A stretch of 64,000 nt of DNA from Streptomyces cathayae (GTDB lineage Bacteria > Actinomycetota > Actinomycetes > Streptomycetales > Streptomycetaceae): the NCBI RefSeq assembly GCF_029760955.1, contig NZ_CP121682.1, forward strand, positions 4,960,001 through 5,024,000, read 5' to 3'. Shown here piece after piece: positions 1,306 to 62,888 of the stretch. The notes beneath the pieces were generated by a model. It saw only the letters and a list, made by a program, of their open reading frames with translations. It was not told the DNA's origin and did no database searches. The position numbers and the translations under genes are program-made. Numbering within the stretch: position 1 is the first letter of the stretch; every line of letters begins with the position of its first letter.

Positions 1306-3453
1306 GTGGAGACAGGTGAGGAGTTCGGGCCCTGGCTGTCCCGGCAGCTCAGACTCGCGGGCAGGACACAGGCCGAACTGGCCGAGGAACTACAGCTGAC
1401 ACGGGCAGCCGTCTCCGCGTGGATCACCGGCAGGTCGACCCCGCGCCCCACGGTCATGGCCGACATCGCCAAGGCGCTGGGCACGGACCTCGGCACGGTG
1501 CACACCCGTACCACCGACACCCAGGCCGGCCTCCCGGTCACCTGGTACCACCGCCCCGGCTACCCCGACGGCGGCCGTGACCTGGGCAATGCTGCCGCTT
1601 TCGCCTTCGACGCCGACGCGCAGGTGCTCGCGCGGGAGACCTGCCAGAACAGCCTCGACGAGCGGCTCACAGAGAACGGACGACCGGTCAGGGTCCGCTA
1701 CACCCTGCACGAGCTGACCGGGGAGAAGCTCGAGGCCTTCCGCGAGGCGATCCTGTGGAACGATCTGTTCCCTCATTACTCCGCGGTCTCCGAGAGCGCG
1801 GGCGGCCAGAAGGTCGGCCGGGTCGTGGACGCTGGGGTGCGCGACATGTATGAGAAGGGCCGCCTGGTCCTGCTGCGTGTCGACGACTACAACGCTTCCG
1901 GGCTCACCGGCGACGACTACGCGGACGGCAAGTTCGCCGCCGTCGTCAGACGCCAACTGGAGAGCCTCAAGTCCGGGCACAGCGCGGGCGGTTCGTACGG
2001 CCTGGGCAAGGCGACGCTGTGGGCCACCAGCGCACTCGGCCTCGTGCTCATCAACTCCACTCTGTCCGTGCCGCACGAGGGACGCACCGAGCGACGTGTC
2101 ATCGGCCGTCTCGAACTGCCCTGGCGTGAGGTCGACGGCGAGACGTACGCGGGCCCCGCCTGGTTCGGGCGCCCCGATCCCGATTCGCCCGGAGTCATGG
2201 TCGCCCGTTCCTGGTGGGCAGACGAGAAGACCGTGGAAAACCTTTACCTGACCCGGGAGAACGACGAACCCGGTACGTCCTTCCTCATCGTCGGCGCGCA
2301 CGACGTGGGTGGCCTCGCGGAGAACTCGTCCGATGCCGACGACGGGTCCGCGGACGACGAGAGGGACGACGAGGACACGCGGGACATCATCAGGATGCAC
2401 AAGCGACTGGTCGAGGCGTTGGGCCGTGACTTCTGGGCCGCGATGACCGGCGGGGGCAGCAGGCTGCCCCTCCTGGAGGTCTATGTCCGTGCCTTCCGGA
2501 ACGGCAAGGAGGTCGTGGAGGAGCAGCAGATCGACCCGTCCGTCGAGCAGCCTTCCCGGACCCGAGCCCTGAAGGCGCACTACGAGGGCACCACGGTGGA
2601 TCGCCTCACCGAGGCCGGACAGGTCGCGGCACGGAGTATCCCGCTGAAACTGCCGTTTTCCGGCGGCACCCGGGGGACGCTCGGTACGCACCAGGCGGTC
2701 CTGCTCGTCACCGAGTCCGAAAAGGACGCAGACGGCGCGAAGAACTCGCTGCACTCGCTCCGCGGCAACCGCATGACCGTCAAGAGGGCCACCGTCCAGA
2801 GGCTGCCGATCGGCACCAACCCCTTCCAGGCCGTTCTGCTGGTGGGCGAGGCGGCCGGGGAGACGGCGCCCTTCGCGAAGGAGGCCGAGGAGTTCCTGCG
2901 TGCGGCGGAACCGCCCGAGCACGACCGCTGGGGACAGACGGAGGAGCTGACCCTGCGCTGGTCGCCGTCCGCGTACCGGCGGATCAACGCACTGACCACC
3001 GAGGCCAACAACGCGGTGAGGGAACTTGTCGCACGACCGAAGCGGAGCAGTCGCGAAGGCGGTGAGGCCCTGCGCAAGGCGTTGACCGTGAAGAAGAAGA
3101 CCAAAGCCAAGGTGCCCACCGGGCCGGTGGTCCCGGCGCTGGACGCACTCGACGCGACCGTCGGTGACGGCGGGGAGTGGCAGATCACCGCCGAAGTGAC
3201 CATCCCGCGCGGCGACGAGATCGCCCCGATGGTGCCGGTGGCCCAACTGGACGTGCGTTCAGGAGGCCGCCCGAAGCTGGGCTGGGCAGAACTCGTGGGA
3301 GTCGAGGGCTGTGAAGTGGAGGACGGGATCCTGCGCTTCACCCCCGGCGCGCGACGCGCGAAGTTCCGAGGGACCACCGATGTCACCAGCCACCCGGTCA
3401 GGACCACGCTCACCCGCCTCGTCCTCGAACTCCGTGCCGGCAAGGGGGAGTGA
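1306..3453 (+). CDS. XRE-HTH / GHKL ATPase fusion protein
   Basis: The start is taken at GTG 1306 because a strong AAGGAAGGAG (1286-1295) sits 10 bases upstream; an ATG at 1171 in the same frame has no such site. The 715-residue product opens with an XRE-type helix-turn-helix (about residues 10-62). A GHKL ATPase domain follows: N-box ARETCQNSLDE at 109-119, G1-like VDDYNASGL near 192-200 and G2 box GSYGLGKAT at 229-237. The remaining 450 residues are unassigned apart from an acidic linker near residues 345-365. It is first in a three-gene operon, four bases ahead of the next gene. A DNA-binding, ATP-gated sensor or effector in the defence island is the best guess; the fusion to HTH is unusual for the family. 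Confidence 0.8.
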   Translation: METGEEFGPWLSRQLRLAGRTQAELAEELQLTRAAVSAWITGRSTPRPTVMADIAKALGTDLGTVHTRTTDTQAGLPVTWYHRPGYPDGGRDLGNAAAFAFDADAQVLARETCQNSLDERLTENGRPVRVRYTLHELTGEKLEAFREAILWNDLFPHYSAVSESAGGQKVGRVVDAGVRDMYEKGRLVLLRVDDYNASGLTGDDYADGKFAAVVRRQLESLKSGHSAGGSYGLGKATLWATSALGLVLINSTLSVPHEGRTERRVIGRLELPWREVDGETYAGPAWFGRPDPDSPGVMVARSWWADEKTVENLYLTRENDEPGTSFLIVGAHDVGGLAENSSDADDGSADDERDDEDTRDIIRMHKRLVEALGRDFWAAMTGGGSRLPLLEVYVRAFRNGKEVVEEQQIDPSVEQPSRTRALKAHYEGTTVDRLTEAGQVAARSIPLKLPFSGGTRGTLGTHQAVLLVTESEKDADGAKNSLHSLRGNRMTVKRATVQRLPIGTNPFQAVLLVGEAAGETAPFAKEAEEFLRAAEPPEHDRWGQTEELTLRWSPSAYRRINALTTEANNAVRELVARPKRSSREGGEALRKALTVKKKTKAKVPTGPVVPALDALDATVGDGGEWQITAEVTIPRGDEIAPMVPVAQLDVRSGGRPKLGWAELVGVEGCEVEDGILRFTPGARRAKFRGTTDVTSHPVRTTLTRLVLELRAGKGE

Positions 3454-3456
3454 CGC

Positions 3457-4452
3457 GTGAAGATCTACCCGTACAAGCGACTCAGTCGGCCGATCGCGCT
3501 CAGGGTGACCTCGGTCTCCCTCAAACTCTCCGACGGCACCCGCGACCGATTGGAGACGAGCGCCTACTCGACCCAGCAGCAGGCCGTCGCCCTCGGCATC
3601 GCGGGCCGCACGGACTGGGTGAGCGCCACGATCGGCCTCTCGGTGACGTTGCCGCCCGGGGTGAACGCGCCGGACGCGCCCTGGTCCGAGCTGTGTGTCC
3701 TCGCCGTACTGACGGACGGCGAGACCAACGTTCGTACCTCCGTGAACCTCACGCTCGACACGGAGGGCGGCCATGACTGGTCCGGGGCGCTGGAGGTGCT
3801 CCGTGACGATCACCGGGGGCGGGCCTCTCTCGCCGTGTACGCCGTCGGGACGGTGGACGGAGTGCGCGGACGGTCGATCACCGAGACCGACCGAAGCTGG
3901 ATCATCGACACGGTGTCCGACGAACCGGTCCGCGACCTCCAACTCGAAGTCCGACAAGCGTCGTTCAAGAGAAGCTCCCGGGAATGGCTCCACGCCTACG
4001 CCGACGCGCCCTGGATAGTGGACACATCGGCCAGAGTCCCCACCGTGCTCGTGAACACCGACGTCGAGGGTGTCATGGGGCTGCTGGACAGCAACAGCTC
4101 GGGCGTGGAGAGCAAGGTGCGTGACCTCCTGGTCGCCCAGATGGCCACCGACGCCTGGACCGCGGTGTTCCACGGAGCCATCGGCGATCTGGAGGTGGAG
4201 TCCGGCGGCGGGCCGGTCTTTCCGACCGACTGGCAGGGCGAGGTGCTGCGGGAGATGCTCCCGGACGTGATCCCCGGTGTCCATGTCGAGGAGGCACTGC
4301 GGCAGGTCCATCGCCGACGCACCGGCGAATCCGGTTGGGTGGAACTACAGACGCGTATCCACTATGCGGCGGTCAGACGCGCCGATGCCGGCAAGGCCCT
4401 CGCCTATGCCATCCGCAGTCTCGAACAGAAGAACCGCGAGAGTGAGACGTGA
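3457..4452 (+). CDS. Hypothetical protein, middle gene of HTH-ATPase operon
   Basis: A 331-residue protein that I do not recognise. It starts at ATG 3457, three bases after the HTH-ATPase stop, and its end overlaps the next start, so the three genes are almost certainly co-translated. The first 170 residues look beta-rich, with alternating hydrophobics and many Thr/Val/Ser; the last 130 look helical. No nuclease, helicase or methylase motif and no membrane segment is visible. From position it is a dedicated partner of the ATPase. Confidence 0.75.
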   Translation: MKIYPYKRLSRPIALRVTSVSLKLSDGTRDRLETSAYSTQQQAVALGIAGRTDWVSATIGLSVTLPPGVNAPDAPWSELCVLAVLTDGETNVRTSVNLTLDTEGGHDWSGALEVLRDDHRGRASLAVYAVGTVDGVRGRSITETDRSWIIDTVSDEPVRDLQLEVRQASFKRSSREWLHAYADAPWIVDTSARVPTVLVNTDVEGVMGLLDSNSSGVESKVRDLLVAQMATDAWTAVFHGAIGDLEVESGGGPVFPTDWQGEVLREMLPDVIPGVHVEEALRQVHRRRTGESGWVELQTRIHYAAVRRADAGKALAYAIRSLEQKNRESET

Positions 4453-5327
4453 TCACCCAACCGAACCACGTGCCGGAACGCCTGGCTCTGCTCGACACCT
4501 CGGCTGTCGATCCGTTCCTCACCGAAGAACTCCTCAGGGGCGAACAGGTCCACGGCGGCATCGATCTGGCCAAGGTCGTCGAGCCGCTTCCCGAGGACGA
4601 CGCCAGATGGTGGATCGAGCCGATCCGAAGCCTGGTGGAAGACGCCATGTTCGAGTTCCGGGAGGACCGCACCCGAGCGGACGCGTGGCTCGCGCCACGG
4701 CTCCATGCCACGCTGCGCCTGACACGACGGGAAGCGGCGGACAAGCGCCTGTGGAACCACCTCGCCCTGGCGGTGGCTCCCGATTACATCGTCTGGCGAC
4801 ACCTGCCGGAGGTGACGGCGAAGCAACCGGAACCGCGTGTCGCCGCACAGCGCTTCAGCGGCCCTGCGGACCGCCAGTGCTTTTCCCGTCTGTGGTGGGC
4901 GGCTGAACTCTTCCGGAACGGGCCGGACTACGGGCCGGTCGAGATCGCCTGCGGGAACCAGGACCTCATCCACACCGTTCTTCGGATGGACCTGATCGAC
5001 CACCGGCCTACCGCCCAGGCTCTGGTTCGACTTCTGAAAAGCGGGCAGGTCACCACCGGGCGAGAGGTCAACGGTCTCAGCACCGCGATCAACACGGCCG
5101 GTGCGACCTTGATCTACGACATCCTCGCGCCGGATGAGCCCCGCGATCCCGCCGCTCTGCGGGACTGGATCGCGGAGGCCGAATCGGCGCAACCGGTCGA
5201 GCGGCACGGACTCCCGGACGGTCCTGACGAGGACCCCGCCCCGGAGGAGTCCGTGGCCGCGCTCACCGGCTACTTCGCGGAGCTGTTCGAGACGGCGCCG
5301 ATCAGGGGCAGGGAGAGTGGCGGCTGA
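4449..5327 (+). CDS. DUF6339-like protein, third gene of HTH-ATPase operon
   Basis: A 292-residue product beginning at GTG 4449, overlapping the previous gene by four bases. The central part has the run KRLWNHLALAVAPDYIVWRH (about residues 98-117), then SRLWWAAELFRNGPDY (about 142-157). This resembles the actinobacterial family annotated DUF6339, whose function is unknown; the assignment is from memory. No catalytic motif is evident and the C-terminus is acidic. It converges on the Dcm gene, with 48 bases between the two stop codons, linking this operon physically with the MORC-Z1-Vsr-Dcm operon. Confidence 0.7.
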   Translation: MITQPNHVPERLALLDTSAVDPFLTEELLRGEQVHGGIDLAKVVEPLPEDDARWWIEPIRSLVEDAMFEFREDRTRADAWLAPRLHATLRLTRREAADKRLWNHLALAVAPDYIVWRHLPEVTAKQPEPRVAAQRFSGPADRQCFSRLWWAAELFRNGPDYGPVEIACGNQDLIHTVLRMDLIDHRPTAQALVRLLKSGQVTTGREVNGLSTAINTAGATLIYDILAPDEPRDPAALRDWIAEAESAQPVERHGLPDGPDEDPAPEESVAALTGYFAELFETAPIRGRESGG

Positions 5328-5375
5328 CCCGGTGTCGTGCGGGCCGTCACAGAGCTCTCCGGCGTCCCGCTCGTA

Positions 5376-6743
5376 CTACTTCGCCGCTGTCTTCTTGCCC
5401 TTGCGCGGGCGCACGGATGAGGGGGGCGGCACCTGGTCCTTGGACTGTGGGCACCTGTCGGTGCAGGCGTCGGCGTCCCCGCAGCCGTTGTCGCGCAGCT
5501 TGGCCCGCTGTTCCTCGGTGGCCGGCTGCCACGGCTTACGCAGGCTCTCCGGGTCCGGCTGAGGAAGGCCGAGCGCGGAGCTCAGCAGGTGTGCACCGAA
5601 CAGGGGCGGTACGGCGTTGCCCACCTGCTGGGCCTGCGCCGTACCGCGCCACGGATAGTCCGGCGGGAAGCTCTGCAGCATCCCCGCCTCGTTCATGCTG
5701 AACCGTGGTCCCTCGTGGACGATGTTCTCGTCGTCTTCGAGGTGCTCGAAGACGACGAAACGGGAGATGCGGCCTGTGACGGTGGTGGCGGGCTGCTGGT
5801 CGGTCCGCACTCCACGCCTCCCCGGGTGCCCGGAACTGCCGTAGTTCGAGCGGACCAGGAAGGGAGCGGAGCGCCCCGGATGTGAGCCCACCGGCTTTGC
5901 GAGGGCATCACGCATCGACCTCCAGGGCCGTAGGTCCGCGTCGCTCTTCGACGCGTCGATTTCCTCGTAGAGAGTCGGCTGACGGGTCTGGTCCGTGGCC
6001 TGGACGGATTTACCGGCGCCGTTCCTCCGATTCCATTCCTTGGCCTGGTAGGCCCGGTGGGTCGGGGTGGGAAGCGAGGGCTCGCCGAGCCCTTCACGCC
6101 GAGCGATCAGCACCGCGCGGGATCGTGTCTGCGGCACCCCGTAGGTCTCGGTGGCGAGGACGCCGACAACCGCTTTGTACCGGGTCCCGTCGGGGAGCCC
6201 CGTCTCCTCCAGGACCTTGGCGTAGTGCTCCCAGAGCGGGGCCACCGCGGGGACCTGCTCCAGGACGATCACGTCGTAGGGGCGGTTCTCCCGGTTCGGG
6301 CTCCGGGTGGCCTGGATCGCGTAGCGGAGAGGTTCGAGGACCAACGCGGTGCGTGGATCGGTGAGGTTCTTCAGGTCCTCGTCGATCTCCTGGGCGGAGT
6401 CGCCCGCCATCAGCCGCTCGATGTACCCCCTGACCCGCTCCAGAGCCTGGCGCCCGGCGCCGTGCCCGGCCACCGAGTACGTCTGGCACGGAGGACCGCC
6501 GGCGAGCACGTTGATCTCCGGCGGCAGCGACTCGAAGGCGTCCCTGCGTACCGCGCTCACGTCGGCGTGGAGGGTGTCCAGCCCGGCTGCGTACCGGGTC
6601 AGGCAGGCGCTCTTGTCCCACTCGATGCCGAGACTCGGGATGTCGAGCGAGTGACCGGCGACGTCCAGCCCTCCGGGACCTGCGAAGAGGTCGAGGACGA
6701 AGGGCTGGTCGAGGATGTGCTTGTGGGACGCCGTGCTGGTCAT
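5376..6743 (-). CDS. DNA (cytosine-5) methyltransferase, catalytically intact
   Basis: A 455-residue C5-cytosine methyltransferase. Motif I is FVLDLFAGPGGLD near the N-terminus. The catalytic motif IV is intact (LAGGPPCQTYSVAG, about residues 80-93). Motif VI reads VLEQVP instead of the usual ENV, a variant seen in some actinobacterial enzymes. A target-recognition region follows, then motif X QVGNAVPP. The start is ATG 6743; longer in-frame extensions overlap the upstream gene and are not needed. The C-terminus adds a Cys-rich tail (CGDADACTDRC) and a basic end. It is last in the minus-strand operon, 11 bases after the pseudo-methyltransferase. It probably marks self DNA for the island. Confidence 0.93.
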   Translation of the reverse strand: MTSTASHKHILDQPFVLDLFAGPGGLDVAGHSLDIPSLGIEWDKSACLTRYAAGLDTLHADVSAVRRDAFESLPPEINVLAGGPPCQTYSVAGHGAGRQALERVRGYIERLMAGDSAQEIDEDLKNLTDPRTALVLEPLRYAIQATRSPNRENRPYDVIVLEQVPAVAPLWEHYAKVLEETGLPDGTRYKAVVGVLATETYGVPQTRSRAVLIARREGLGEPSLPTPTHRAYQAKEWNRRNGAGKSVQATDQTRQPTLYEEIDASKSDADLRPWRSMRDALAKPVGSHPGRSAPFLVRSNYGSSGHPGRRGVRTDQQPATTVTGRISRFVVFEHLEDDENIVHEGPRFSMNEAGMLQSFPPDYPWRGTAQAQQVGNAVPPLFGAHLLSSALGLPQPDPESLRKPWQPATEEQRAKLRDNGCGDADACTDRCPQSKDQVPPPSSVRPRKGKKTAAK

Positions 6744-6754
6744 GTGGCGGAATT

Positions 6755-7750
6755 CTAGCCGGCCGGGGGGACTGATGGATCCCGAACGAGCGCCGCGGCC
6801 ACAGCCCGCCCCAGAGCCCTCCCCACGGGAGGAGGCGTCGCGTGGCCTATCTGGCGGTAGCGGGAGGTCTTGCGCCCGGTGATCTCCCATGTCTCGGGAA
6901 ACCCTTGCAACAGTGCCGCCTGTCCAGCCGTGATCTTCACCATGTGGTCCCTGCCGAGTTCGGGATCCCAGACGAAGTCCACGTCGGGAACCTCGTCGCC
7001 CACGGTGTGACCGTTGACACCCACGGTCGCCCAGGTGTTCTTGGCACCGGTCGGCCCCAGGTCCGCGCCGCCTCGGTTCTTCGAGCCACCGACCAGGGTC
7101 GGAGCCGGTCGATCGGCCTGTGCGGCCCAGCGAGCGGCGTCCCGCCAACCACGTGATGCCATGGACGGCCCCAGGACGGCACCGACCGTCGCCGGCTGCC
7201 GCACAGTCGGTGACGGCGGCCGGAACGCCGCGGCCCACGGTCGCTCGATGGCGATCAGTACGCCCTGCTTGCGGTTCTGGGGAACTCCGAAGTCCACCGC
7301 GTTCACGACGAACCAGCTGAACTCGTATCCCAGATGGGCCAGTTCGGCTCGGGCGAAATCACGGAGGTGCTGGTAGGCGTCCGAGTTCGCAAGCCCGGGA
7401 ACGTTCTCGATGAGCACCGCGCGGGGCCTGATCGCATGGACGAGGTAGATCGCGGCCGTCAGCAGCCGCTCCTCCACATCCGAATCGGGGCGTCCGACGG
7501 TCGCGCTCGACTTCACTCGTGGCAGGCCTGCCGACAGGAGATCCACGTCGTGGCTCACGGGATGCTCGGACGGATCGAAGTCCATCAGATCGGTGTGAAG
7601 CACGTTCCAGTGCGGCCGGTTAGCTCGCAGCGTGCTGACGGCCAGCTCGTCGTCGTCCAGCAGCAGACGCGGATCGAACCCGGCCTGCTCCAGTCCGAGA
7701 GCGAGCCCGCCCGCCCCGGAACAGACGTCCACGAAGGTCAGACCACTCAT
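6755..7750 (-). CDS. Dcm-family paralogue lacking the catalytic Cys
   Basis: A 331-residue protein with the full C5-methyltransferase frame but no active site. Present are motif I FVDVCSGAGGLALGLEQAGF, motif VI LIENVPG, motif VIII FGVPQNRK and a motif X-like IGHATPPPVG. Where the family has PPCQ, this reads SAGLPRVKSSATVGR, so both Cys and Gln are missing. SAM and DNA binding may persist; methyl transfer by the normal mechanism should not. The start ATG 7750 overlaps the Vsr stop (ATGA), and the active paralogue follows 11 bases downstream, suggesting a paired or regulatory subunit. The surrounding motifs are well kept, which argues against random decay. Confidence 0.85.
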   Translation of the reverse strand: MSGLTFVDVCSGAGGLALGLEQAGFDPRLLLDDDELAVSTLRANRPHWNVLHTDLMDFDPSEHPVSHDVDLLSAGLPRVKSSATVGRPDSDVEERLLTAAIYLVHAIRPRAVLIENVPGLANSDAYQHLRDFARAELAHLGYEFSWFVVNAVDFGVPQNRKQGVLIAIERPWAAAFRPPSPTVRQPATVGAVLGPSMASRGWRDAARWAAQADRPAPTLVGGSKNRGGADLGPTGAKNTWATVGVNGHTVGDEVPDVDFVWDPELGRDHMVKITAGQAALLQGFPETWEITGRKTSRYRQIGHATPPPVGRALGRAVAAALVRDPSVPPAG

Positions 7751-8181
7751 CCCTTTTTCTCCCCCTCGTTCGCTCTCGTCACAGCGGCCGCCACCCGGGC
7801 AGCCACTTCCTCGGGAGCCTCGTGTTCCCAGAAGCGCAGCACCGTCCACCCCTGCGCGGCCAGGTGGTCGGTCGTCTCCCGGTCGCGGGCCATGTTCCGG
7901 TCCAGCTTGCTCCGCCACCACTCCGCGTTGGCCTTCGGCTGCGTGGCGTGTAGGGGGCACCCGTGCCAGAAGCACCCGTCGATCAGGACGGCCACCTTCG
8001 CTCGGGGGAAAGCCACGTCGAGCCGGCGACGAGGCATGCCGGGCACCGGATACTCCACGCGATAACGCAGGCCGGCCGCGTGCAGCAGCCTTCGTACGGC
8101 CAGCTCGACCCCCGTGTCCTTGCTCGCTTGCCTGCTCATACGGGCCGAGACGCCGGGAGAGGAGGGCGTCATGCTGTTCAC
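7747..8181 (-). CDS. vsr: Vsr-family very-short-patch-repair endonuclease
   Basis: 144 residues from GTG 8181, which has GAGG ten bases upstream. The family signature is clear: SRQASKDTGVELAVRRLLH near residues 16-34, RLDVAFPRAKVAVLIDGCFW (the catalytic D in the DVAFP strand) and HGCPLH, then the C-terminal WTVLRFWEHEA. In classical systems Vsr nicks T:G mismatches that arise from deamination of 5-methylcytosine. Many Vsr homologues sit in predicted restriction islands beside Dcm and MORC/Z1 genes, as here. It could be the repair arm for the Dcm next door or the nuclease effector of the island; the sequence does not decide. Confidence 0.93.
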   Translation of the reverse strand: MNSMTPSSPGVSARMSRQASKDTGVELAVRRLLHAAGLRYRVEYPVPGMPRRRLDVAFPRAKVAVLIDGCFWHGCPLHATQPKANAEWWRSKLDRNMARDRETTDHLAAQGWTVLRFWEHEAPEEVAARVAAAVTRANEGEKKG

Positions 8182-8193
8182 AGTCGTCAGACC

Positions 8194-11142
8194 TCACGCA
8201 CTCGTGTCGTCACGGTCGATGATCGCAGCTTCCGCCCTGGTCGAGTCGATCGCACGGAACCGCACCAAGGCACGGTCACCCCGCGCCGTCGACGGCGGTG
8301 CGACGAAGGCGAAGGCCATGACCAGGTCGCGCGGATCCACCGAACCGTCGGACAGGATCCGGGGCTCGGATTCCACCACGGGATAGAGCACCAGCGCACC
8401 CCGACGGGGACGGACGAGTTCCTCGACAGCGGCGTTTCCCGCCAGATGCGAGGCCCCTGCCAGGCGCGTCACCGCGGCGACGTGCTTCGGATCACGGATC
8501 GCGCCGAACAGCGGGCCGCGGCGGCGCTTACGGCGGGCGAGGGAGAAGGGGCCGTGTCCCAGAATGCGTGCCTCGTTCCGGCGGGCGGACGTCTGTGTCG
8601 GAGCGATCACGACCCAGTCGTCGATCGTGCCGTCTTCCCGCCCGGCGTCCAGCAGGAACTCCAGGTGGGGCGAGAACTGCCCCGGGACGGACCAGCGCAG
8701 GTCGCACAGCACCGTGAGCAGGTCTTGATGCGACATCGTGCCCACCCGTGCCTCGTACTGCGGACCGCCGTCCACGCCGAGCGAGACGGAGGTGTCCGAC
8801 AGGGCTTCGAAGACCGGCTCCCAGCACTCCGTGTTGTGGCGCAGGGCGTGGGGGTCCTCGGGGTAGGCCGTGGGCTCCTCCCAGACTCCCGGCGACCGTA
8901 CCTCCACCAGCTGCGCGTTGAACATCTTGTTCCGCGCCGACGGCTTCACCCACGGCAGATGCTGAGCCACCAGCGGGGGTATCTGGGCGGGGGTGACCTG
9001 GGGGCGGCCGTTCACCATAGGGGCGTAGCGGGCCAGTTCGGTGCGGAAGAGTTCCTCGTCGCGGCAGATCGCCTCGAAGGCCTCGTACAGGTCGACCGTC
9101 CTGGCGTTGCGGCCACGGCCGAGAGTCTCCTCCCGGCCGATGTAGAGACGGACGAGGTCGCGGTACCCGGGCCGGAAGCCGAACCAGCGACCCATCTGCA
9201 TCAGGGTGTCGGCCTGCTGCGTCGTGCGGCGGTAATACGTGATCGTCAGGCCCTCGACCGTGAAGCCGCGGGACAGCTTCGTGCCACCGACCAGGATCTT
9301 CCAGACGTTCGGGGTGCGATCGAAGTCCAGGTCGGGCTGGGAGTAGTCACGTTCGCTGGCGCCGTTGACGACGATCACCGGTGTGCCGCCCTTGTTGATG
9401 AGACGGCGGGCCTCGAAGACGTACGGCTTCAGATCTGCGTACGTCGTGGGGGTGGGCAAGGAACTGGCCGCGTGGGTCCGGAAGTCCTTCTCGAAGAGTG
9501 ACGCCAGACGTGCGTGCCCCTGAGAGCCCGTGTACGAGGCGTTGTGCCACATGGTGTTGATGCGCAGGGCGAGCGCGGTGTGTTCGGCCATGCGGACCGA
9601 TTCGTGCACGAGCATCGTGTGGTGACGGAACGGACCGTCGGGGGTCCCGTGGTCGGCGCGGTAGAGCTTGAGAGCACCTGTGAGGACGAAGGCGTCCAGA
9701 GCTTCCTGGAGGCGGTCTCCTGCGGAGTCGTAGATGCCTCGGACGTGCTTCTTCTCGGCCCCGCCCTCGGTTTCGCCGTCGTCGACGCCGTCGAGGTCGT
9801 GGAAGTCCTGGACGCCCATGTAGCCGCTGGGGCGAGGGAGGGAGATCAGGAAGTCCTGCGGGAAGATGTTCTCCTCGTCACCGGGGTCGATGAAGACGTT
9901 GGCAAAGGGGGTCGCGGTGTAGCCCACGTACTGGGCTCGCGGCAGCAGACCCAGAAGCTTGGAGATCAAGCCGTTGATGGCCGTCCGCTCGATTCTTCCC
10001 TCCTCCCACTTCTTCGGGTTCGAGGTGTTCACGGAGGCCTGGTCGGACTCGTCGTCGATGATGAGGGTCGGCAGCTCCCCCAGGATCCCGTGGATCTGCT
10101 TGAGGTCCTTGACGAGCTTCGTGAGGACGGCCTTGTTCTTCTTCACCACGAGGATCCGCGCTGCGGTGTGGTGAAGGTTCGCCGAGTCATGCAGTGGCCG
10201 GGTGGGGACACGCTTCTCGAACTCCAGGGCCCGGATGCCCTGGGCCAGGCTCTTGTAGTCGTTGTCGCGTGTGGTCAGGCGCTCGATGTCGAACGCACCG
10301 AGCGTGGAGGGACGGCCGCCGTGCCGGACGAACTCCGACCAGTCCTCGTCGTCACCCACGTAGTCCACGCCGACCAGGGAGTCCACATCTGTGACATCCG
10401 CGCCCCGCAGGATGTTCTCCTGGCCGATCAGCTCCATGTCTAGGCGCCTCTGGGTCTGGGCGCGCAGCAGGTTGAGGGTGCCCCCCAGGACGATGACGAG
10501 ACGGTATCCGGCATCGATGGCCTTGGCGGCCACGCCGGTGAAGTTCGCCGTCTTGCCGGACTGGACGTAGCCGACGACCAGGCCCTTCGCCTGGCGGGCC
10601 GCCGGCTGTTCGGGGTCGGCGAGGCGCTCGACGACTGCCAGGCTCGCCTGGTCGAGACTGGCGATGGCGGCCTCGGACCAGCCCTTGTCGCGGAGCTTCC
10701 GCTCGTACGCCGTCCAGTAGAAGGACCTGGCCGCCGCGCGTTCAGGGGTGTACCACGGGGTGAATTCCCGGGTGATCACCGTTGCGCCGGGCACCTTCGC
10801 CACGGGTACGGCCTCGTCCAGGAGCTTGCACAGCTCACTTCCGAACCGGAGCCGTTCGTAGACCACCGCTCGCCGTTCGTCGGTGCGCGCCGGGGAGCCC
10901 GCGCCCCACTGCGGGTTCTCCGCGAAGTCCCAGGCGGTCAGGTGGCGGCCCCACAGAGCGGCCAGTGCGTCGTCACCACCGATGAGAAGGGAGCGGAACA
11001 ACTCCTCGCCCAGGTCCGCGTCCGGGTGAGACTCGTCCGCGGCGAGCGCTGCCCAGCGCTCGAAGTGACGTGGCATGCTGCCCATCCCCGCCAGCGCGGA
11101 GGTGTGGATGTCGAGGAGCACACCGGAGGAAGTGTCGGTCAT
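8194..11142 (-). CDS. Z1-domain superfamily 2 helicase-like ATPase
   Basis: 982 residues from ATG 11142 with a good GAGGACA site. Helicase-type motifs are visible: Walker A GYVQSGKT at 191-198, a DEAD-like IIDDESDQASVN in the middle, motif III-like GYTATPFANVFI, and a C-terminal Z1 signature containing LVGGTKLSRGFTVEGLTITY and QMGRWFGFRPGYRDLVRLYI. The Z1 domain is known almost only from predicted restriction/defence operons with MORC or MutL-like ATPases. It probably translocates on DNA and couples recognition by MORC to cleavage. MORC lies upstream (53 bases) and Vsr downstream (12 bases). Confidence 0.93.
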   Translation of the reverse strand: MTDTSSGVLLDIHTSALAGMGSMPRHFERWAALAADESHPDADLGEELFRSLLIGGDDALAALWGRHLTAWDFAENPQWGAGSPARTDERRAVVYERLRFGSELCKLLDEAVPVAKVPGATVITREFTPWYTPERAAARSFYWTAYERKLRDKGWSEAAIASLDQASLAVVERLADPEQPAARQAKGLVVGYVQSGKTANFTGVAAKAIDAGYRLVIVLGGTLNLLRAQTQRRLDMELIGQENILRGADVTDVDSLVGVDYVGDDEDWSEFVRHGGRPSTLGAFDIERLTTRDNDYKSLAQGIRALEFEKRVPTRPLHDSANLHHTAARILVVKKNKAVLTKLVKDLKQIHGILGELPTLIIDDESDQASVNTSNPKKWEEGRIERTAINGLISKLLGLLPRAQYVGYTATPFANVFIDPGDEENIFPQDFLISLPRPSGYMGVQDFHDLDGVDDGETEGGAEKKHVRGIYDSAGDRLQEALDAFVLTGALKLYRADHGTPDGPFRHHTMLVHESVRMAEHTALALRINTMWHNASYTGSQGHARLASLFEKDFRTHAASSLPTPTTYADLKPYVFEARRLINKGGTPVIVVNGASERDYSQPDLDFDRTPNVWKILVGGTKLSRGFTVEGLTITYYRRTTQQADTLMQMGRWFGFRPGYRDLVRLYIGREETLGRGRNARTVDLYEAFEAICRDEELFRTELARYAPMVNGRPQVTPAQIPPLVAQHLPWVKPSARNKMFNAQLVEVRSPGVWEEPTAYPEDPHALRHNTECWEPVFEALSDTSVSLGVDGGPQYEARVGTMSHQDLLTVLCDLRWSVPGQFSPHLEFLLDAGREDGTIDDWVVIAPTQTSARRNEARILGHGPFSLARRKRRRGPLFGAIRDPKHVAAVTRLAGASHLAGNAAVEELVRPRRGALVLYPVVESEPRILSDGSVDPRDLVMAFAFVAPPSTARGDRALVRFRAIDSTRAEAAIIDRDDTSA

Positions 11143-11195
11143 CTCTTGTCCTCAGTCAGGGGCCGGAGCGGGCCAGGAGCGAGAGCGGTACCGGA

Positions 11196-12749
11196 TCAGT
11201 CGGTCGCCTGGTCACGGCGGTCGCGGTGCGCACCTGCCGCTGCCAGGAGGATGGTGTTCCAGTAGTCCACTCGGTCCTGGCGGCCACGCTCCCAGCGTCC
11301 GAGACCGAAGCAGTCCTCGAGCAGCAGGTACAGCAAGGTCTTCGTGACGGGGGCGTCGTTGCTTCCGCCGCGACGGCCGTCGTTGAAGTCGCTGCGGAAG
11401 GCCTTGTTGAGGAGGACGGTGTTGTTCTCGCGGTCGAGGTCGAAGAACTTGTCACCGGGAAGCGAGACCCAGGTGAACGAGATGGGCTCTTCCCCCGGCT
11501 TCTCGGGCAGCTCCTCCTTGACGACCCGCTTGATCTTCGGGTCCATCCCCTTACCCGGGAGCGTCACGGGCTTGCGGACGACCTCCGTGCGCTTCGCGCC
11601 CTCCCGGTAGGCGGCCTCGGCGTCGCCGAGGTACCCGTGAAAGGTGTTTCCGGAGGCGTCCACGGCTTTCTCGACGCCGAGCGTGAAGGCGGGCGTGACG
11701 GTGACGTTCTCCTTCTTCACGTCGAGGCTCAGGACCCTGTTCTCGCGGGGTGGGAGGTCGACGGCCACGCGAGCGAGAGCGAGGTGTCCCTCAGGGTTGC
11801 GAAGACCGTTCCAGCCGCCGGCCTGGACAAGGCGGTCGTTGCGGTAGAAGTAGAAGCCCTGACGGTCGGCGAGGGGGCCGATCTGCCGGAACCCGGCCTG
11901 CTTCGACTTGGCGGGCCAGATGTGCGCGGTCAGTTCGACGTCCCCCAGGCCCTCCACGGGGGCCGTGAACGTACGGGGGTAGCGCGGCTTGCCCGGGACC
12001 TTGTAACCGAAGGGGTCCAGCGCCTCGACGGCGATGTGGTCGACTTCCTCGCCGAGTGCCCCTTCGCCACTGCTGACGTCCCACACGGCGATGTCGAGCT
12101 TGAGGCCGTTCTGGAGGAACCTGTGCAGGTAGAGCCCGAGGTGCGTTTCCAGGCGGGCGATCGCCTTGGACAGGTAGTGGTCGCTCTGGCCGGCGGTCAC
12201 CGTTTCGAAGGCCCGCACCTGGTCCCAGCGCACGATCGTGCCGTGCCACTCGATGACGCCGTCGTAGCGGTCCACGAGTTCCTGCGCGTAGCGCGGGTCG
12301 ACGGTGTCACAGCGGAAGCCGTCCTCGATGCCCTCGGCAGTGAGACGGCGTCCTGCGGTCCGGCTGCGCTTGGTCCGGCTGACCACGGTCAGGGATGCCG
12401 CGTGGGACAGTGAGGCGGCCTTCAGGCCCGTGCCGTACAGGCCGAGGGCGCTCTCGCCGTAGTCGCGGCGCCGTCCCACCGTCATGGCGGCGTCCAGGCC
12501 GGGATCGTCCATGCCCTTGCCGTTGTCGATGACCAGCAGGGTAAGGATGCGCTTGGCGTCCCGCAGGAAGTGCACGACGATCTTGTCGGCGCCGGCATCG
12601 ATCGAGTTGTCGATCAGGTCGGCCACGGCGACCTCGAAGCCGTACCCCTGATTGGTCAGAGCCTTGCCGTAGCCGGCATCGGGTGGCAGGTGGGTGCTAC
12701 TGGTCGTGGGGACCTCGTACTGCCAGACGGTGCCGGGCTCGTAAGGCAT
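11196..12749 (-). CDS. MORC-type GHKL ATPase of defence operon
   Basis: 517 residues; start ATG 12749 is chosen because GAGGAC precedes it, and the frame upstream is non-protein-like. GHKL motifs are textbook: N-box FEVAVADLIDNSIDAGA at 38-54, G1 VIDNGKGMDD at 73-82, G2 LGLYGTGLKAASLSHA at 102-117. The rest is the S5-like transducer and an unassigned C-terminal part. Bacterial MORC ATPases are known to cluster with Z1, Vsr and cytosine methylases; dimerising DNA-clamp behaviour is inferred from the family. It is first in the minus-strand operon, so its upstream region (12750-13049) should hold the operon promoter. Confidence 0.9.
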   Translation of the reverse strand: MPYEPGTVWQYEVPTTSSTHLPPDAGYGKALTNQGYGFEVAVADLIDNSIDAGADKIVVHFLRDAKRILTLLVIDNGKGMDDPGLDAAMTVGRRRDYGESALGLYGTGLKAASLSHAASLTVVSRTKRSRTAGRRLTAEGIEDGFRCDTVDPRYAQELVDRYDGVIEWHGTIVRWDQVRAFETVTAGQSDHYLSKAIARLETHLGLYLHRFLQNGLKLDIAVWDVSSGEGALGEEVDHIAVEALDPFGYKVPGKPRYPRTFTAPVEGLGDVELTAHIWPAKSKQAGFRQIGPLADRQGFYFYRNDRLVQAGGWNGLRNPEGHLALARVAVDLPPRENRVLSLDVKKENVTVTPAFTLGVEKAVDASGNTFHGYLGDAEAAYREGAKRTEVVRKPVTLPGKGMDPKIKRVVKEELPEKPGEEPISFTWVSLPGDKFFDLDRENNTVLLNKAFRSDFNDGRRGGSNDAPVTKTLLYLLLEDCFGLGRWERGRQDRVDYWNTILLAAAGAHRDRRDQATD

Positions 12750-34437: not shown

Positions 34438-37400
34438 ATGACCACGGCGCTGCCGCCCGGTTCCACCGCGGGCCTGACGGCAGAGGGCTTCGTCACCCAG
34501 TACAAGTACACGTACAAGTACAACTCCGACGGCCAGCTGGAGACGTACACGACCCCCGCGGCCGGCGGCCTCGACGCCGAGGACGTGATCACCCGCTACA
34601 ACAGGGCCGGCCTGCCGGTCTCGGTCTCCGGCAAGGACTGGTACGCCGCCGAGGCCGCGTACTCGCCCTACGGCCAGGTGCTCCGCTCCACCACCGGCGA
34701 GCAGGGCCACCGGCTGTGGCAGGAGAACACCTTCGACGAGTCCACCGGTGAGCTGCTGACCGGCAGGCTCGTCCGGGAGAACGCCACCGACCAGACCGTC
34801 GTCCCCGGCAGCGAGGTCAGCAAGCGCTCCTACGCCTACGACCCGTCGGGCAACGTCCTGTCCGTCGCGGACAGGATGGGCCCGGTCACCGACCAGCAGT
34901 GCTTCACGTACGACGTGCTCGGCCAGCTGAAGGAGGCGTGGACGACGCCGGGCGGCAGCGCCTGCACGGCCTCCGGCAAGACCACCGCCGAGCCGGTGTA
35001 CTCCGACGGCAAGGTCAACGTCTCGTCCGCCAACAGCGGGTACTGGCAGTCGTACGACTACGACGCGCTCGGCAACCGCACCAGGAAGACGGTGCACAAG
35101 GCCGACCCGACCTTCACCTCCGGGGTGCGGGACACCAAGGGCGACGTCGTCAGCGACTACCTCTACGGCACCGGCGAGACCGAGAAGAACGACCAGCCGC
35201 ACACGCTGACCTCGTACACCACGACGTCGAAGACGGCGACGAACGCCACGGTCACCACCCGTTCGACGCAGACCTACGACGCCGCGGGCCAGATGGAGTC
35301 GCGCTCCACCGGCGGCGACACGGCCCAGACGATGACCTGGACCTGGGACGGCAAGGTCGAGTCCGTCACCGGCTTCGGCACCGACGGCTCCGGCGCCTGG
35401 ACCGGGGTCGGCGGCCTCTGCATGGACCTGTCGGGCGGGTCCACGACGGCCGGCACCGCCATCCAGATCTACGTGTGCAACGGCAACAAGTCGCAGCAGT
35501 TCCGCCTCAAGGCCACCGACACCGACGACAACGGCACGGTCGAGGACGCGACGATCGGCCAGCTCGTCGTGGGCGGGCAGTGCCTCCAGCCGAGCGGCGC
35601 CACCGCGGGTTCGGCCGTCCTGATCCAGGCGTGTGACAAGGCCGCGGCGACACAGCGCTGGCAGACCCTGAGCACCGGTCAGGTCAAGTACGTCACGGGC
35701 ACCTCGACGAACCTGTGCCTGGCGGCCCCGGCGTCGACGGTCGGCACCGACCTCACGCTGGCGGCCTGCAACTCCACCGTCGCCGGCCAGATCTGGAAGC
35801 CCGCGTCGAAGACGACGTACGTCTACGACGCGATGGGCAACCGTCTGCTGGAACGCACGAGCGCCGGCGCGGTCCTGAACCTCCCCGACACCAAGGTCTC
35901 GCTGACCACGGCCGGCAAGGCCCGCTACGTCGAGCGCACGTACGCCGGCATCGGCGGCCCGTCGGTGACCCGGTTCCGCGAGGGCGCCAACAACACGGCC
36001 GGCGTCAGTGAGCACCTGTTCGCCCAGGCGGCCGACCTCAACGGCACCCCGCTGGCGGAGGTCCGCCTGGACGGCGGGATGCAGGTCCGGGTGCAGAAGA
36101 GGGACCCGTGGGGCGAGGACCGCGCGGTGGGCATGACCATGCGCACGCACACCGGCTTCCACACGGGTGACGACGACGTGGAGACGGGCCTGACCCACCT
36201 GGGCGCCCGCGAGTACGACCCGGCAACGGGCCGCTTCATCTCGGCCGACCCGGTCCTGGACGACAGCGATCCGCTCCAGGCCAACGGCTACTCGTACGCG
36301 AACAACAACCCGGTCACGCACGCGGACCCGTCGGGCCTGACATCCTCCGCCTCCAGCTTCGACGCCTCGATCGCGGCGCTGGACGCGAAGATCGCCGAGT
36401 ACCAGAAGACCCTGAACCGCTCCATCGGCGACGTGATCCTCGCGACCGGCTGGGCCGTGTTCAAGGAGTTCGTCGGCTGGAACGACGTGGTCGGCTGCTT
36501 CACCCAGGGCGACCTGTGGGCCTGCGGAAGCCTCCTGATAGACGCCGTCCCAGCGACCAGCTTCTTCTCCAAGGGCAAGAAGATGTGGGGGGCCTTCAAG
36601 GCGACGAAGCGCGCGGTCGAAGCCTGGCGCACCGCGAAGAAGGCAGCCGAGATCGGCATGAAGTCGGCCAAGGCGGCCAGGGCGGCGCTGGTCAAGGCGA
36701 AGAAGGCGGCGGAGGCGGCCGCGGCGGAGGCCAAACGAAAGTCCAGGGAAGCCGCGAAACGCGCCGCCGAGGCGGCCAAGAAGAAGTCCCACACCGGTTC
36801 CAAGGGCGCCCGGGGCAACCCGGTCCAGGTCCAGGCCCGCACCACGGCCCAGTCCAAGGGGTCTGTGGGCGGCGGCAAAGTCGAGAACAAGTCCGGCGGG
36901 TCCCGGAACGGGTCGGGCAAGGAGGACTCGGGCGGGAGCTCGGGTGGAGGGGGCGGCGGCTGCACGAAGGACGACAACAGCTTCACCCCGGACACCAAGG
37001 TCCTGATGGCCGACGGCACCACCAAGGCGATCAAGGACGTCAAGGCCGGCGACAAGGTCCTGGCGACCGATCCGGAGACCGGCGAGACAACGGCGCAGAC
37101 GGTCACCGCCGAGATCCTCGGCAAGGGCGTCAAGCACCTGGTCAAGGTCACCATCGACACCGACGGCAAGAAGGGTTCGAAGACCGCCGAGGTCACCGCG
37201 ACCGACAAACACCCCTTCTGGGTCCCCGAACTCGACGACTGGATCGACGCCACCGACCTGAAGTCCGGCCAGTGGCTGCGCACCAGCGCCGGCACCCTGG
37301 TCCAGATCACGGCGGTCGAACGCCGGACGGCACTGGACGCCACGGTCCACAACCTCACCGTCAGCATGCTGCACACGTACTATGTGCTGGCGGGCGCCGC

Positions 37401-37791
37401 TCCCATTCTCGTACATAATTGCGATAGTGAAGTTCACTGGGTTCCGGAGAACGCTCACATGAGCCCCCAGGCCCAGGCTTACGACAGCGGCGCAATGGGG
37501 TCGAGGCCTGGCGTTGCACCGGCGTTGCAGTACTACAAGCCGAACGGTAGCAAGCTGGCGCAGGTCAAGTTCGATGGCTTCGACTCTACGAACGGCGTGC
37601 TGATCGACCGAAAGCTCAGCGTGACGCATCGCAACAAGACGTACCAGCAAGCCCTCAATCAGTCCCAGGCACTGGAGCAAAATGGGTACTCAGGCAGGTG
37701 GGAAGTGCCCAACGCTACAGAAGCTAGACGGGCTCGCAAGCTACTCGGCGATCTCCTAATCACCAACATCAGAGTGAGGATTGTCCCCTAA
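34438..37791 (+). CDS. Rhs polymorphic toxin: Rhs core, ricin lectin, Hint, REase-fold toxin (5' truncated)
   Basis: 1117 residues from the first ATG, but codons upstream to the IS end (QTADYQPTD) fit the same protein, so the N-terminus is lost. Order: YD/Rhs repeats; a ricin-B lectin (GLCMDLSGGSTTAGTAIQIY ... QIWKPAS) inserted in the repeats; Rhs core end GLTHLGAREYDPATGRFISA with GYSYANNNPVTHADPSG; an Ala/Lys coiled coil; a Hint autoprotease starting at Cys in GGGCTKDDNSFTPDTKV and ending APILVHNC; and a toxin tail. The tail has VKFDGFDSTNGVLIDRKLS (Asp and DxK of a PD-(D/E)XK nuclease) and NQSQAL, fitting Tox-REase-5. The gene overlaps the next start by one base. Confidence 0.88.
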   Translation: MTTALPPGSTAGLTAEGFVTQYKYTYKYNSDGQLETYTTPAAGGLDAEDVITRYNRAGLPVSVSGKDWYAAEAAYSPYGQVLRSTTGEQGHRLWQENTFDESTGELLTGRLVRENATDQTVVPGSEVSKRSYAYDPSGNVLSVADRMGPVTDQQCFTYDVLGQLKEAWTTPGGSACTASGKTTAEPVYSDGKVNVSSANSGYWQSYDYDALGNRTRKTVHKADPTFTSGVRDTKGDVVSDYLYGTGETEKNDQPHTLTSYTTTSKTATNATVTTRSTQTYDAAGQMESRSTGGDTAQTMTWTWDGKVESVTGFGTDGSGAWTGVGGLCMDLSGGSTTAGTAIQIYVCNGNKSQQFRLKATDTDDNGTVEDATIGQLVVGGQCLQPSGATAGSAVLIQACDKAAATQRWQTLSTGQVKYVTGTSTNLCLAAPASTVGTDLTLAACNSTVAGQIWKPASKTTYVYDAMGNRLLERTSAGAVLNLPDTKVSLTTAGKARYVERTYAGIGGPSVTRFREGANNTAGVSEHLFAQAADLNGTPLAEVRLDGGMQVRVQKRDPWGEDRAVGMTMRTHTGFHTGDDDVETGLTHLGAREYDPATGRFISADPVLDDSDPLQANGYSYANNNPVTHADPSGLTSSASSFDASIAALDAKIAEYQKTLNRSIGDVILATGWAVFKEFVGWNDVVGCFTQGDLWACGSLLIDAVPATSFFSKGKKMWGAFKATKRAVEAWRTAKKAAEIGMKSAKAARAALVKAKKAAEAAAAEAKRKSREAAKRAAEAAKKKSHTGSKGARGNPVQVQARTTAQSKGSVGGGKVENKSGGSRNGSGKEDSGGSSGGGGGGCTKDDNSFTPDTKVLMADGTTKAIKDVKAGDKVLATDPETGETTAQTVTAEILGKGVKHLVKVTIDTDGKKGSKTAEVTATDKHPFWVPELDDWIDATDLKSGQWLRTSAGTLVQITAVERRTALDATVHNLTVSMLHTYYVLAGAAPILVHNCDSEVHWVPENAHMSPQAQAYDSGAMGSRPGVAPALQYYKPNGSKLAQVKFDGFDSTNGVLIDRKLSVTHRNKTYQQALNQSQALEQNGYSGRWEVPNATEARRARKLLGDLLITNIRVRIVP

Positions 37792-58979: not shown

Positions 58980-58985
58980 TGTCGG

Positions 58986-59059
58986 TGCGCCGCCAGGGAC
59001 TCGAACCCCGGACCCGCTGATTAAGAGTCAGCTGCTCTAACCAACTGAGCTAGCGGCGC
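58986..59059 (-). tRNA. tRNA-Lys (CTT), first copy
   Basis: Read on the minus strand: acceptor GCGCCGC/GCGGCGC, D-arm TAGCTCAGTTGGTTAGAGC, anticodon loop ACTCTTAAT with anticodon CTT, T-arm GGGGTTCGAGTCCC, discriminator A. CCA is not encoded. The 74 bases are identical to the copy at 62815-62888. Confidence 0.97.
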
Positions 59060-62810: not shown

Positions 62811-62814
62811 ACCG

Positions 62815-62888
62815 TGCGCCGCCAGGGACTCGAACCCCGGACCCGCTGATTAAGAGTCAGCTGCTCTAACCAACTGAGCTAGCGGCGC
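62815..62888 (-). tRNA. tRNA-Lys (CTT), second copy
   Basis: Identical over all 74 bases to the tRNA at 58986-59059, including anticodon CTT and discriminator A; CCA not encoded. The flanks differ, so it is a gene duplicate and not an assembly repeat of a larger segment. Confidence 0.97.

Follow-up and report, generated by a model that had tools for sequence, protein, structure and literature searches.

A catalytically dead cytosine methyltransferase in facing Streptomyces gene clusters that look like two halves of one DNA-defence system

Do two gene clusters that face each other on a chromosome belong together, and why does one of them keep a C5-cytosine methyltransferase homologue that has lost its catalytic residue? 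These questions are raised by a locus of the soil bacterium Streptomyces cathayae lying in a stretch of 64,000 nucleotides of contig NZ_CP121682.1 (positions 4,960,001 to 5,024,000; here called the window). A sequence-only reading of the window had described two convergent operons forming one compact island, and this observation was confirmed (Table 1). A plus-strand trio, A, B, and C, marked as a single operon by gene order and spacing, faces a minus-strand cluster that includes two methyltransferase homologues (Dcm1 and Dcm2), a Vsr-type endonuclease, and a MORC/MutL-like ATPase. Judged from their sequences, the facing clusters look like two halves of one DNA-defence system, with Dcm1 retained despite the lost catalytic residue, perhaps as a reader separating foreign from own DNA.

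Using a profile search, the Dcm1 frame was found to match PF00145 (4.9e-40), with motif IV reading AGLPRVKSS where active enzymes carry GGPPCQ. Alignment to a solved methyltransferase placed the PR of Dcm1 opposite PC, within a one-residue gap, and multiple alignments concurred. PRV was present in all 120 of the matches listed, out of 4885, in a database search for Dcm1, and the catalytic PC dipeptide of motif IV was found in none of the 87 Dcm1-type sequences aligned. The S-adenosylmethionine motif and the ENV motif are mostly retained, the latter as ENV in 69 of the 87 and in other EN- forms in 16. The top PADLOC model for Dcm1 was that of the DruM2-type C5-methyltransferases (5e-87); however, the catalytic cysteine is lost in Dcm1, and no Druantia genes were present among those scanned.

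Full-length homologues of A are patchily distributed, occurring in 84 of 392 Streptomyces genomes, with B adjoining A in all 84 loci. The earlier reading had proposed that both clusters form one larger system in which the Dcm enzymes mark self DNA. This interpretation is partly supported: a Dcm1-type gene lies within 9 kb in 78 of the 84 genomes, and one of the two methylases is dead. The A, B, and C distances show correlations of 0.95 to 0.96 among themselves and of 0.64 to 0.79 with Dcm1 and Dcm2. Dcm1-type matches of 43 to 60% identity were also seen in four genomes without a full-length A (G097, G285, G177, and G329).

Table 1. Genes of the two facing clusters (positions within the window)
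Feature	Position	Strand	Basis
A, XRE-type HTH + GHKL-like ATPase, 715 aa	1306..3453	+	motifs only; divergent PDC-M33A relative
B, 331 aa	3457..4452	+	occupies PDC-M33B position
C, DUF6339 protein, 292 aa, PDC-M33C	4449..5327	+	profile matches
Dcm2, C5-cytosine methyltransferase with intact GGPPCQ	5376..6743	-	profile + motif
Dcm1, catalytically dead C5-methyltransferase homologue, motif IV GLPRVK	6755..7750	-	sequence motifs
Vsr-type endonuclease	7747..8181	-	Vsr-family match
Further gene of minus-strand cluster	8194..11142	-	
MORC/MutL-like GHKL ATPase, distantly MzaB-like	11196..12749	-	profile + PDB sequence matches

A possible mechanism, put forward tentatively, is that a methyltransferase whose cysteine was lost once, in the lineage joining the DUF6339/HTH-ATPase trio, became a specificity subunit. 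The dead enzyme would read unmodified sites, a signal passing via the DUF6339 protein and the GHKL ATPase would license the Vsr nuclease, and a second, exchangeable active methyltransferase would supply protection.

Dcm1 could instead be the regulatory partner of active Dcm2 in a heteromeric methyltransferase, much as DNMT3L regulates DNMT3A, with the trio and Vsr restricting DNA and Dcm1 serving modification. Consistent with this, dead and active methyltransferases are jointly present in 78 of the 84 loci, lie 11 bases apart in the window, and occur together without the trio in locus L163. We nevertheless consider it rather unlikely, because in a sister system the dead domain, whose best model is again DruM2-type (1.4e-97), is fused to DUF6339 of the trio side and not to Dcm2. 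The partner methylases also differ in type: PCQ is carried by the partner in 82 of 82 loci, within motifs varying among GGPPCQTY, GGPPCQSF, GGPPCQTF, and GGPPCQGF, and some partners are just 24 to 45% like Dcm2, Dcm1 being retained nonetheless.

The earlier reading could place the trio in no named system; the trio shares its three-gene order with PDC-M33, a PADLOC-DB candidate whose name was not found in the literature searched. The A match is partial (8.8e-22, covering only positions 31 to 171 of 627 of the PDC-M33A profile), C matches both PDC-M33C (4e-10) and PF19866 (DUF6339; 1.1e-13), and the window B gave no match to PDC-M33B at E values up to 1. The PDC-M33 models seen are limited to A, B, and C; neither a methyltransferase nor Vsr is among them, unlike in the window. 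The N, G1, and G2 box residues of A are conserved, making it a putative GHKL protein, although no profile or fold match was obtained. B is predicted, in a weak model (pLDDT 58), to have an N-terminal beta-sandwich and C-terminal helices.

Relatives of the trio were also identified beyond Streptomyces. Eleven plasmid records carried A homologues, and six were examined (L178 to L183). Each of the six had an A homologue, which in L182 is split over two frames, and DUF6339 as either a gene or a profile match. A gene at the B position was annotated in five, that of L181 being assigned by position only; none was found in L180. The window-type B profile matched the archaeal B-position genes of L178, L179, and L182 (5e-8 to 2e-7), and B of L183 matched PDC-M33B (3.7e-63). 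Five plasmids, from four haloarchaea and Synechococcus, had a C5-methyltransferase nearby, each carrying PCQ and none of the dead form; the stretch examined of L183, from Lactococcus, showed no such gene. Some trios are accompanied only by an active Dcm, and the Lactococcus one by none found in the stretch. In two haloarchaeal plasmids (L178, 13119-16197; L182, 13843-16924) it faces a C5-methyltransferase and an annotated ATP-binding protein, that of L178 matching type II restriction-enzyme models, and in two others a second A homologue lies on the other strand, 6 to 7 kb from the first (L179, 681-2585; L180, 666-2561). That the island serves housekeeping epigenetics or repair, with Dcm2 marking DNA, Vsr correcting deamination, and dead Dcm1 and the trio regulating, rather than defence, is improbable: many relatives share its chromosomal site and the endonuclease is a true Vsr-family protein, but its presence is patchy, plasmid relatives of the trio neighbour Abi proteins, restriction enzymes, and a Pycsar-type effector, and the trio is listed as a defence candidate.

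Gene arrangement varied among loci. Vsr lies upstream of A, on its strand, in 8 of the 84 Streptomyces loci, and in L064 downstream on that strand. DUF6339 was present in 14 of the 296 genomes of a class search, nine of these outside the genus. In L177 a single strand carries the trio together with a dead Dcm1 (PST) and an active methylase; in L174 the trio shares its strand with Vsr and an active methylase, and there is no dead one. Both dead (PRL) and active methyltransferases occupy the opposite strand in L173. Upstream in L176 are an active methylase and Vsr, again with no dead methylase, and L172 has an active methylase approximately 2.7 kb away, its A matching PDC-M33A at 5.9e-85. No dead motif was found by motif scan in L169 to L171 and L175, which are of the sister type, L169 stopping at a contig end. 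Upstream of A in eight loci (L090 to L098 except L095) lies a protein of approximately 540 aa (family f27), whose sequence resembles that of a NERD-type nuclease joined to a helicase-like ATPase part.

The MORC/MutL-like ATPase matched HATPase_c_3 (2.2e-21) and, by PDB sequence, MORC2 and MutL (E 7e-4). An island protein matched PF10593 (2.7e-53), with DTLMQMGRWFG present in the translation. Mza is a known system, compared here through the models MzaB, MzaC, and MzaD. The MzaB and MzaC matches fell far under the NCBIfam equivalog cutoffs (254.7 of 1500 and 120.6 of 850 bits), no Mza model besides these three matched among the nine window proteins scanned, and the window locus differs in having Dcm and Vsr. 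The CglI/NgoAVII restriction systems use a PLD-B3 nuclease, and the available part of that account describes no MORC, Vsr, or dead methyltransferase, unlike the window (PMC4267653).

Elsewhere in the window, a 1117-aa protein (34438-37791) with RHS repeats, ricin-type lectin domains, and a pretoxin HINT domain resembles a polymorphic toxin, and two tRNA-Lys(CTT) genes (58984-59059 and 62814-62888) lie on the same strand, 3.8 kb apart.
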